A DNA stretch of 37,907 nucleotides from IMG/VR virus record IMGVR_UViG_3300027800_000014, positions 1 to 37,907 of that record. The stretch is one strand, 5' to 3'. Below, one piece after another: positions 26,116 to 37,907 of the stretch (positions are counted from its first letter, which is position 1; each line of letters opens with the position of its first letter). Made by a program: the position numbers and the translations under genes. Source of the stretch: a virus. The notes beneath the pieces are model-generated. The model saw only the letters and a program-made list of their open reading frames with translations. It ran no database searches and was not told where the DNA came from.

Positions 26116-26268
26116 CCGTTCATTGACCCGACACGGCTCTTGTAGGCAACAGACAATGGTATGTTGCAACCAATCTACAAGGTGCAGGACTTAATCGTCT
26201 TGTGCCTACAGGAGCTAATAACTATAGGTAGTTGAACAATGCTTGTATTAATATGATAATCAAGCATT
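26114..26268 (+). ncRNA. Four-hairpin structured RNA tract
   Basis: Consecutive perfect inverted repeats: AGCCGT/ACGGCT (26114-26138); CTTGTAG-GCAACA with TGTTGC then CTACAAG (26139-26181); AACTA/TAGTT (26220-26233); AATGCTTG/CAAGCATT (26238-26268). TGTAGGCA (26141-26148) can also pair with TGCCTACA (26203-26210), so two folds compete. The loop of the first hairpin holds TTGACCCGAC, complementary to 25751-25760. There is no T-run, and the ATG at 26287 follows 18 bases later. It may be a 3' UTR, a leader switch or a processed RNA. Confidence 0.65.
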
Positions 26269-26286
26269 AACATTAGCAGTAATATT

Positions 26287-26493
26287 ATGAACTTTTTCCA
26301 AGTTAGAAAGTATACAAAGTTCCCATTTAGGAATGTAAAATGTGATGAATTAATTCAATCATTTGAAACTCTCGATCAAGCCAATGCCTTTTCAATTGCA
26401 TTCAATACTAAGAGGAATGAAAGAGGAAAGTATATAGTCAAAAGTAATGATGGATACTATGTTTGTGAGATAAAAAAACCAAGTTTCAGATAA
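26287..26493 (+). CDS. Small unknown protein
   Basis: A 68-residue, basic protein (MNFFQVRKYTKFPFRNVKCD). It has a helix (SFETLDQANAFSIAFNTKRN, about 25-44) and a beta end (YIVKSNDGYYVCEIKKPS). The family is not recognised. It follows the structured RNA by 18 bases and lacks a Shine-Dalgarno. Confidence 0.65.
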   Translation: MNFFQVRKYTKFPFRNVKCDELIQSFETLDQANAFSIAFNTKRNERGKYIVKSNDGYYVCEIKKPSFR

Positions 26494-26542
26494 CTATTAT
26501 AAGCTTATTGACTTCCATTTTTAGTTATTGTATGTTTGAAGT

Positions 26543-26638
26543 ATGAAAAGAAATCGAACACATTTCACAAAGTTAGATAGTTTTATAGAGGGGGCAGTTT
26601 ACTGTTCGGTTTCCTGTCCTCTCTGTAAAGATATTTAA
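26543..26638 (+). CDS. 31-residue Cys-containing leader peptide candidate
   Basis: An ATG-to-TAA frame lies over the hairpin ahead of the replication initiator. The product starts MKRNRTHFTKLD and ends with three Cys (CSVSCPLCKD), a CxxxC-x2-C pattern. If translated, ribosomes would open the 26587-26624 stem and free the element at 26604-26612. It is short and may be chance; the overlap with RNA structure makes it of interest. Confidence 0.35.
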   Translation: MKRNRTHFTKLDSFIEGAVYCSVSCPLCKDI

Positions 26639-26650
26639 TTTAAACCGAAC
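26587..26650 (+). promoter_or_regulatory. Predicted H-type pseudoknot in the initiator mRNA leader
   Basis: Stem 1: 26587-26597 pairs with 26614-26624 (11 pairs, two G-U). Its 16-base loop has GTTCGGTTT (26604-26612), which is a perfect 9-base complement of AAACCGAAC (26642-26650), 5 bases before the ATG at 26656. Closing stem 2 would block ribosome access to the start. The pairing is seen; regulation is inferred. Confidence 0.65.
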
Positions 26651-26655
26651 AAACA

Positions 26656-27369
26656 ATGGAGAATACAACTTGGGTAAAACTCTATAGAAAATTCACCGAA
26701 TGGGAATGGTATTCTGATATCAATACGAAGGTGTTATTTTTGCACCTTCTTTTGAGAGTGAATTATAAAGACAAAAATTGGAGAGGTGTTTTGGTTAGGC
26801 GTGGATCAATTATAACTAGCCTCGGAAACCTCGCGGAAGAAACAGGTTTGACAGTCATGCAGGTGAGGACATCAGTAAAGAAGCTAATTTCAACACACGA
26901 GATAACACACCTCGGGACACGAGAATATAGCGTTATAACGATAGAAAAGTATAATGAGTACCAAACCGATAACAAGCCAAGTAACACACAAGTAACAAAC
27001 GAGCAACAAACCTCTAACACACCTGTAACAACTACTAAAGAATGTAAAGAAAGAAAGAATATATCTAAAGATACGGCTACGCCCGTCTATGGAAACAAAG
27101 ATTTAATTTCTTTGAAGAAGTTTCTAATGAGTAACTACCCAAAACCTTTGGATGGTGTAGTCGATACTAGAAAGCTACAGAACTTAAAACAAGTATCAAC
27201 AAAAAGAAAGAATCAAGATGAATGGATGGATGAAGATTGGAAACAGAATATAAAGAAGTTCTTAATCTTGTATCTACAGGAAACGCAAGAAGAGTATCTA
27301 GTGAATAGCATTGATAAACTCCGAGAGAAAGCCAAACTCTGGAGAGAGTACCGTGGCAAAATAAATTAA
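26656..27369 (+). CDS. DnaD-like replisome organiser / replication initiator
   Basis: The N-terminal 100 residues are a winged-helix domain of the phage replisome organiser type: WVKLYRKFTEWEWYSD, VRRGSIITSLGNLAEETG, then LTVMQVRTSVKKLISTHEIT and YSVITIEKYNEYQ. Next is a low-complexity Thr/Asn/Gln linker (about 105-128), and then a helical C-terminal region (about 145-237). Such proteins bind the origin, which often lies in their own gene, and load the host helicase. Tandem AAGTAACA strings lie in the linker DNA (26979 and 26990). The leader can form a pseudoknot. Confidence 0.8.
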   Translation: MENTTWVKLYRKFTEWEWYSDINTKVLFLHLLLRVNYKDKNWRGVLVRRGSIITSLGNLAEETGLTVMQVRTSVKKLISTHEITHLGTREYSVITIEKYNEYQTDNKPSNTQVTNEQQTSNTPVTTTKECKERKNISKDTATPVYGNKDLISLKKFLMSNYPKPLDGVVDTRKLQNLKQVSTKRKNQDEWMDEDWKQNIKKFLILYLQETQEEYLVNSIDKLREKAKLWREYRGKIN

Positions 27370-28607: not shown

Positions 28608-29078
28608 ATGGGAAAAACATTCTTTGAAGACTTAGAGAAGGGAAAGGGAGCTGAATTATATATTCTGGATCAACTCAAGAATGAATTTCCTACCATGGTA
28701 AAAGTAGAAGAGAAGTGTATCAACTACGATTTAATTGATGACAATGGATATACAGTTGAGGTTAAGCTAGATACTAGAAGTAAAGATACAGGGAACGTAG
28801 CCATTGAGATAAGGCATAGAGGAATACCAGCGGGGATATCGATATCAAAAGCTATGGAGTGGGCTGTTGTTTATTACCTGAAGTATTATGGTTGGGTTTA
28901 CTCAAGAACTAAGCCAGATAATATCCGAAGATTTATTAAAAGAAACATAGAATTTTTAAGGGTGTATGAGAACCCAGATGACTTAGATAAGTCTCAAATT
29001 GTGCTTATTGATACTATAGATTTTGCTAATGAATTTAATTACTACAAAATACTTGACACCTATGCACCCATGGTGTAA
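28608..29078 (+). CDS. PD-(D/E)XK nuclease-like protein
   Basis: The 156 residues hold the PD-(D/E)XK core near the N-terminus: an early Glu16 in the first helix, INYDLI (Asp41), then TVEVKLD (Glu51, Lys53) and TGNVAIEIRHRG, followed by PAGISISKAMEW. This fits a Holliday-junction-resolvase or restriction-like fold. In a recombination block next to the Rad52-like gene, a role in branch or end processing is reasonable. A promoter for the next genes lies in its last codons. Confidence 0.8.
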   Translation: MGKTFFEDLEKGKGAELYILDQLKNEFPTMVKVEEKCINYDLIDDNGYTVEVKLDTRSKDTGNVAIEIRHRGIPAGISISKAMEWAVVYYLKYYGWVYSRTKPDNIRRFIKRNIEFLRVYENPDDLDKSQIVLIDTIDFANEFNYYKILDTYAPMV

Positions 29079-29081
29079 TAT
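29053..29081 (+). promoter_or_regulatory. Sigma70-type promoter inside the 3' end of the nuclease gene
   Basis: TTGACA (29053-29058), 17 bases, then TAATAT (29076-29081). It overlaps the nuclease stop and would start RNA near 29088, 26 bases before the ATG at 29114. The GGTGTAAT string is shared with the candidate at 30540. Confidence 0.6.
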
Positions 29082-29113
29082 GTAATTATAATAAATTATT
29101 AATCATTATATTT

Positions 29114-29305
29114 ATGGAAGGAAATATAAAGAAAGCGGTTATGGAATTTGAGAAGAATTTCAAACCCAAAAAGAAGATAGTTTTACCACAAAGCTATTTC
29201 GATGAATTCAAGGCTACGAAGACATACCAAAACGGACAAAACTTTTATAACACTATTAAGATGTCTAATAGTTATGCTGAAGCAAAACAACATAATTTAG
29301 TTTAA
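29114..29305 (+). CDS. Small basic protein of unknown function
   Basis: The 63-residue protein is basic (EKNFKPKKKIVLPQS), with a helical end (YFDEFKATKTYQNGQNFYNT). The family is not recognised. It is first in the transcript predicted from the 29053 promoter and ends 8 bases before the next ATG, in the recombination block. Confidence 0.65.
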   Translation: MEGNIKKAVMEFEKNFKPKKKIVLPQSYFDEFKATKTYQNGQNFYNTIKMSNSYAEAKQHNLV

Positions 29306-37168: not shown

Positions 37169-37907
37169 CGCCGTTGTATATTGGACTAGGAAACAACTAG
37201 AGTTTATACGGGCTATACAAACAAAGAAATATCAATTCATGTTATTTGGTGGATCAATGGGTGGTGGCAAAAGTCAACTCATGGCTAGAACTTTCATATC
37301 GTTATTAGACTCTCACGCTGGTACAAGGTGCTTTGTGTTTAGAAAAAACTTATCAGTATTAAAGAGAACGACATATCAGACATTCAAACAAGTAGCAACC
37401 GAATTCGGCACAGTGTATACAGAGAATAAAAGTGAGATGTGTTGGAACTTTCCCAATGGAAGTCAATTATGGTTTCAAGAGTTAGATGATACCAAAGATG
37501 GGGACTGGAATAAGATTAAGGGTGTAGAGGCTACATGGATAGGTATAGATGAAGCTAATGAAATACAAGAGGGTGCTTTCAATATCTTAATGGGTAGAAT
37601 GTGGAGATGTAACCCCAACAAGGAGCATTCATTTATGATACTTACTTGTAATCCAGCACAGAATTGGGTTAAGGAAAGATTCTATACCCCGTGGGTTAAT
37701 AATACATTAGAAGAACCATTCTATTTCCAACAGGCATTAACTAGAGATAACCCTTTCTTACCATCTGAGTATATACAGACATTAGAGTTATTACCTGAAT
37801 CCGAATACAATCGTTATGTGCTAGGTAATTGGGATTTTGCTGATGACCCAAACCAATTGATTAAATACGAATGGATTAAACAGAACATATGGAATCCTAC
37901 AGAAGAG
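37146..37907 (+). CDS. terL: Terminase large subunit, N-terminal part (gene continues at 1)
   Basis: The start is the ATG at 37146, which overlaps the TerS stop by 23 bases; it is the only ATG that keeps the whole ATPase. The product has Walker A GGSMGGGKS (about 35-43), Walker B WIGIDEA (Asp135, Glu136) and the coupling segment LTCNPAQNWVKERFY. The gene runs to the window end and on through 1-679 for 437 residues in total. TerL drives ATP-fuelled packaging and cuts DNA. The packaging type (cos or pac) cannot be told. Confidence 0.95.
   Translation, partial: MIQLQGTNAVVYWTRKQLEFIRAIQTKKYQFMLFGGSMGGGKSQLMARTFISLLDSHAGTRCFVFRKNLSVLKRTTYQTFKQVATEFGTVYTENKSEMCWNFPNGSQLWFQELDDTKDGDWNKIKGVEATWIGIDEANEIQEGAFNILMGRMWRCNPNKEHSFMILTCNPAQNWVKERFYTPWVNNTLEEPFYFQQALTRDNPFLPSEYIQTLELLPESEYNRYVLGNWDFADDPNQLIKYEWIKQNIWNPTEE
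37781..37907. repeat. Terminal direct repeat, right copy
   Basis: Identical to 1-127. Removing one copy gives a circle of 37,780 bases with an intact TerL gene. Confidence 0.97.

Follow-up and report, generated by a model that had tools for sequence, protein, structure and literature searches.

A candidate RNA switch with one loop and two competing partners in the leader of a phage helicase-loader gene

The leader of a phage mRNA encoding a DnaD-like helicase loader is very probably an RNA switch. It carries a long hairpin whose loop (site B) is complementary to two flanking sites, one near the 5′ end of the leader (copy A) and one just ahead of the start codon (copy C), and the arrangement recurs in a second phage with its pairing letters rewritten. 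We judge it fairly probable that the leader acts in cis, that loop B chooses between A and C, and that B:C pairing lowers synthesis of the initiator.

For phages that use a DnaD-type helicase loader, the common view is that transcription and protein control the start of replication. If our reading is true, these phages regulate the amount of initiator with an RNA switch, as low-copy plasmids do, and by a new arrangement in which one loop has two rival partners; we know of no duplicated competing pseudoknot partners of this kind. The basis of that significance is a leader RNA that was kept while its pairing letters, and even the initiator gene, were exchanged. The arrangement could be tested with three-way swap mutants and would lend itself to transplantation as an orthogonal regulator.

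Genome and leader layout

The window, by which we mean the whole stretch of DNA that was analyzed, is virus record IMGVR_UViG_3300027800_000014 (37,907 bases). It has a perfect direct terminal repeat of 127 bases (1-127 and 37781-37907), and a contig from another sample (IMGVR_UViG_3300004241_000041, the record of L045; 100% identical) runs unbroken across the join of its ends; thus, the window is a complete phage genome of ~37,780 bases, circular or circularly permuted. It carries a portal gene and other phage genes. The plus-strand gene at 26656-27369 matches phrog_2514 (E = 7.6e-22) as a DnaD-like helicase loader or replication initiator, and it appears to be the gene controlled by the leader element.

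This leader extends from a predicted sigma-70-like promoter on the plus strand (TTGACT-17-TATGTT, 26508-26536), located by consensus scan, to the ATG at 26656, with transcription predicted to start at ~26540-26543. A relative, L043 (see below), has TTTACA-17-TATATT at the equivalent place. Taken singly, promoter consensus matches of this kind occur at chance level in the window; the sigma-70-like reading, which is a consensus match, appears to fit both phages. The same scan also matched the region to TTG-N20-TAnnTTTG (26508-26538), but we rejected a Bacteroidetes-type promoter: that motif, although perfect in the window, matches at chance level and is absent from L043. The placement of the sigma-70-like promoter, directly upstream of the element and in the same place in both phages, disfavors a transcription start after 26612, one of the ways in which a preliminary description of this region had supposed that its proposed pseudoknot could fail.

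Shine-Dalgarno sequences are scarce in the window, where a partial one precedes 4 of 43 gene starts, and none was found ahead of 26656; the unpaired A/U-rich stretch before this ATG therefore probably matters for initiation. The promoters look sigma-70-like although the window's gene starts hardly have Shine-Dalgarno sequences. Farther upstream, the gap before a 68-aa gene at 26287 contains an inverted repeat (26136-26215; 22-nt arms, 82% complementary, 36 nt apart), possibly another structured RNA or a terminator.

A hairpin and three pairing sites in two phages

The hairpin (26570-26641) comprises 27 pairs closing a 16-nt loop (26598-26613), with an RNA fold z of −3.8; the preliminary description had recognized this first stem but implied a shorter one. 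Its upper part has 17 pairs (26581-26597 with 26614-26630), and its lower part (AAGTTAGATA, 26570-26579, with TATTTAATTT, 26632-26641) consists of A-U and G-U pairs only. Site B in the loop (TGTTCGGTTT, 26603-26612) has two partners on the same plus strand. The downstream one, copy C (AAACCGAACA, 26642-26651), forms 10 pairs and ends 4-5 nt ahead of the start codon. It includes the 9-base match on which the earlier proposal was built: loop bases 26604-26612 (GTTCGGTTT) are indeed the exact reverse complement of 26642-26650 (AAACCGAAC), which ends 5 bases before the ATG at 26656, and the match extends to 10 bases (26603-26612/26642-26651). The upstream one, copy A (GAAATCGAACA, 26550-26560), forms 11 contiguous pairs, one of them G-U. 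This copy had been missed; the two-arm pseudoknot as first proposed was right about the pairing but incomplete, in this respect and because it can form only once the intact 27-bp stem has been partly opened. No second hairpin appears between the stem and the start codon in the predicted fold.

When the flanks were shuffled, a loop match this long arose with P of ~0.002 downstream and ~0.001 upstream, and both together arose in none of 20,000 trials. Considering both phages, the chance is ~0.001-0.01 for each of the A and C pairings, and again 0 of 20,000 for the two jointly. In the 37.9-kb window, AAACCGAAC has no further exact occurrence, while 9 sites match it with at most one mismatch (5.15 expected). 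A scan of ~681 kb of other viral DNA turned up a loop word matching both flanks only in one case, an A/T run.

L043 is a 39-kb virus record from a different sample; its metallophosphatase gene is 79% identical to that of the window, which lies 2.4 kb upstream there. Positions 9578-9693 of L043 align without gaps to window positions 26543-26658, with 65 of 116 bases identical, and the 116-nt element, from predicted promoter to start codon, is thus free of indels in the two phages. The stem is fully paired (27/27) in both; eight pairs, in the upper stem, carry two-sided compensatory changes and four pairs one-sided changes. None of 500 shuffles paired as well, and slid versions were only 43-59% paired. 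The lower stem has the same letters in both phages, and the remainder of the element is about half identical. The loop word of L043 is GCTTGGTC, and GACCAAGC stands both at the position equivalent to A and at that of C; the loop pairs with A over 11 nt in the window and 8 nt in L043, and with C over 10 nt and 8 nt. It is this comparison that brings out the stem and the three-way complementarity, and it indicates that loop, A, and C were rewritten in concert. The pseudoknot pairing ahead of the initiator is thereby strongly supported: rather than one arm of stem 2 being freely lost, loop and start-codon arm changed together, alongside eight two-sided stem changes, in L043, the one relative in which the element occurs. 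Compensatory base changes such as these mark a conserved structured RNA element, here on two sequences only.

The gene downstream of the element in L043 also encodes a DnaD-like helicase loader, of another family (phrog_1701), and BLASTP found no similarity between it and the loader of the window, which indicates that the element was kept while the downstream gene and the pairing letters changed. A small protein common to the window (26287-26493), L043 (10487-10690), and L044 (9200-9439) is 31-38% identical over the matched part and has no family match. It is placed before the element in the window and after the initiator gene in L043, so the element and the initiator seem to travel as a module.

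Among viral contigs, a search with the inverted repeat itself returned 30 pieces, all unrelated; a search with the conserved lower stem returned 28 stretches, with the structure only in the L043 record; and a search with the 5′ half of the element gave no further member among the matches listed. Queries with the neighboring small proteins and with the L043 loader led to no further phage, and no DNA similar to the leader region was found in phage or plasmid records. The leaders of 10 other phage helicase-loader relatives and of one homologue in a Patescibacteria metagenome-assembled genome (MAG) proved unrelated. A covariance model built from the pair gave no convincing match in 379 Patescibacteria genomes or in 45 of one class; this phylum was chosen only since one homologous loader sits in such a MAG, and it may not be that of the host. 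The one weak match, in L078, was a short-loop, terminator-like hairpin. Rfam 15 gave no gathering-level match, only implausible sub-threshold eukaryotic matches at relaxed E. We count it against a switch that the element is present in two sequences only and is missing from those other loader leaders.

The proposed switch and its alternatives

We propose that loop B pairs alternatively with A, near the 5′ end, or with C, just ahead of the start codon. The B:C pseudoknot would lock the ribosome entry site, and less initiator would be made, while A:B pairing or the plain hairpin would leave C free and allow translation. Because both pseudoknots require the lower A/U stem to be open, these states would exclude each other; because A is transcribed first, A:B could form first, yielding later to the hairpin or to B:C. 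The balance may be shifted by folding kinetics, by a ribosome on the leader, or by the initiator protein, and the switch would set when the virus starts copying its DNA. We infer that translation of the initiator is the target, that B:C is the OFF state, and that A acts as an anti-sequestering rival because B:C would bury the ten bases directly before the start codon; the direction of B:C (OFF versus ON) is not fixed by sequence, and the pseudoknot of ColIb-P9 repZ activates. A narrower version, which we offer only tentatively, is a three-state RNA timer with A acting early (ON) and C at the start codon (OFF), limiting the time of translation without a leader peptide, antisense RNA, or protein.

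Helix geometry suggests that with the full 27-pair stem closed, neither C, at the foot of the stem, nor A, with its 9-nt linker, would reach the loop. Opening the ten lower A-U/G-U pairs, worth ~8 kcal/mol by energy estimate, gives linkers of 12 nt and ~20 nt, which by the same geometry should suffice. In both phages, the hairpin, A:B, and B:C states differ by no more than ~3-5 kcal/mol by rough estimate, with pseudoknot energies that include a generic penalty of 7 to 12 kcal/mol (9.6 in the Dirks-Pierce parameters). Three states of about equal stability would be the make-up of a switch.

The acting molecule appears to be plus-strand RNA: the non-Watson-Crick pairs of the stem are all G-U on that strand (six in the window and five in L043, three of them shared), with no A-C, and the antisense strand folds far worse (−15.9 versus −33.6 and −21.6 versus −37.2 kcal/mol in the two phages). 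Promoter and gene direction are consistent with this. Such a pattern speaks against A, B, and C being simply double-stranded DNA sites that bind the initiator or another protein, in autorepression or at an origin, and that differ in their letters since the initiators differ. We think this quite unlikely. Three copies at conserved spacing, with letters that changed alongside downstream initiators of different families, are what it would lead one to expect, and a precedent exists in T4, where the replication protein gp32 controls its own expression at a pseudoknot (PMC535899); double-stranded DNA sites, however, leave unexplained both the 27-bp stem with its compensatory changes and the G-U mismatches confined to one strand. 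A protein might instead bind these sites in their RNA form, a reading that would merge with the switch explanation. The poor antisense fold also weighs on the idea that the loop is the target of an antisense RNA transcribed from the opposite strand, of the kind that controls plasmid copy number. Both loops do contain a YUNR-type motif (UUCG and UUGG), as would, by our own estimate, about one in two random 16-nt loops, but no convincing minus-strand promoter lies close to the hairpin; the nearest candidate is a 9-of-12 match ~300 bases off, which is no better than chance. We regard this explanation as very improbable. We give equally little credence to a structural element with some other role, whether in mRNA stability or protection, as a single-strand replication signal, or as chance persistence by common descent: it would accord with a very stable 5′ hairpin and with only two sequences, but it leaves the concerted change of the loop and both flanks unexplained.

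A further alternative turns on an open frame of 31 codons (26543-26638, plus strand), which the two phages share with identical start, stop, and length and whose stop sits in the 3′ arm of the lower stem, 17 nt ahead of the initiator ATG. If it were translated, the element could be a pseudoknot activator like that of repZ/repA in IncI-alpha/IncB plasmids, in which ribosomes open the hairpin and turn the initiator ON, either because B:C then forms or because the terminating ribosome restarts 17 nt downstream. This is suggested by the features common to the two frames, by the position of the stop, and by the plasmid precedent (PMC10286972, PMC8383071), yet we find it rather unlikely. The ATG falls at or beside the predicted transcript start (+1 to +4, leaving a 5′ UTR of 0-3 nt), so the frame would be leaderless. 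Its start and stop lie within blocks conserved for other reasons, and the frame remains open in 53% of shuffles. A coding signature is absent: mismatches between the window and L043 number 14/19/12 by codon position, and peptide similarity is below the shuffled expectation. While the frame noted in the preliminary description exists and encodes four Cys, its Cys-rich character is not conserved, L043 having none; the leader peptide suggested there is possible but unsupported by this comparison.

Relation to known systems

For the cis-acting switch that we favor, the nearest known counterpart is a pseudoknot switch found in initiator genes of plasmids. In ColIb-P9 repZ and in IncB and IncL/M repA, expression of the initiator is governed by a leader peptide, an antisense RNA, and a pseudoknot (PMC10286972, PMC8383071). 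The phage element would work like the RepZ switch, by analogy and with no claim to membership. As in repY-repZ of IncI-alpha ColIb-P9 and repB-repA of IncB and IncL/M, bases of a hairpin loop complement a site immediately ahead of the start of an initiator gene (10 nt in the window and 8 nt in L043), a short frame overlaps the hairpin, and the structures are mutually exclusive. In contrast, the gene behind the phage element is a DnaD-like helicase loader, and the genome is that of a phage, with a portal gene, rather than a plasmid with a RepZ/RepA-family initiator. The element has neither a Shine-Dalgarno sequence nor the separate sequestering hairpin from which, in RepZ-type leaders, the pseudoknot frees one. 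For a RepZ-type antisense RNA, sequence scans gave, in the vicinity of the element, no minus-strand promoter match better than chance, and the minus strand folds weakly; codon comparison does not support a leader peptide; and the phage element has an extra upstream pairing partner, A.

T4 gene 32 shows that a phage replication protein can control its own synthesis through a pseudoknot in the leader of its mRNA (PMC535899). The T4 operator resembles the element described here in that a phage gene for a replication protein has a pseudoknot in its 5′ leader, a U/A-rich stretch separates structure from gene, and relatives retain the structure with diverged sequence. The T4 pseudoknot, however, is a structure of ~28 nt at the extreme 5′ end to which the protein binds, whereas the element of the window has a predicted 27-bp stem and two competing partners; gp32 and the window's helicase loader are unrelated proteins. 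Among other leader devices, erm-type translational attenuators combine a leader frame with alternative pairings that either mask the start region or leave it accessible, using shifted hairpins and a drug-sensing peptide. The leader frame and the alternative pairings at the start region are alike; here, one loop pairs with two flanks as pseudoknots instead of forming shifted hairpins, and a drug-sensing peptide is absent.

TTGACA-type promoters occur elsewhere in the window (29053-29118) and in L075 (at 13668 and 15626) and L076 (at 12945 and 14927). Downstream of each, a similar A/T-rich leader contains AAATTATTA, or a near match to it, ahead of the next gene's ATG; these phages perhaps share an early promoter whose 5′ leader is conserved.
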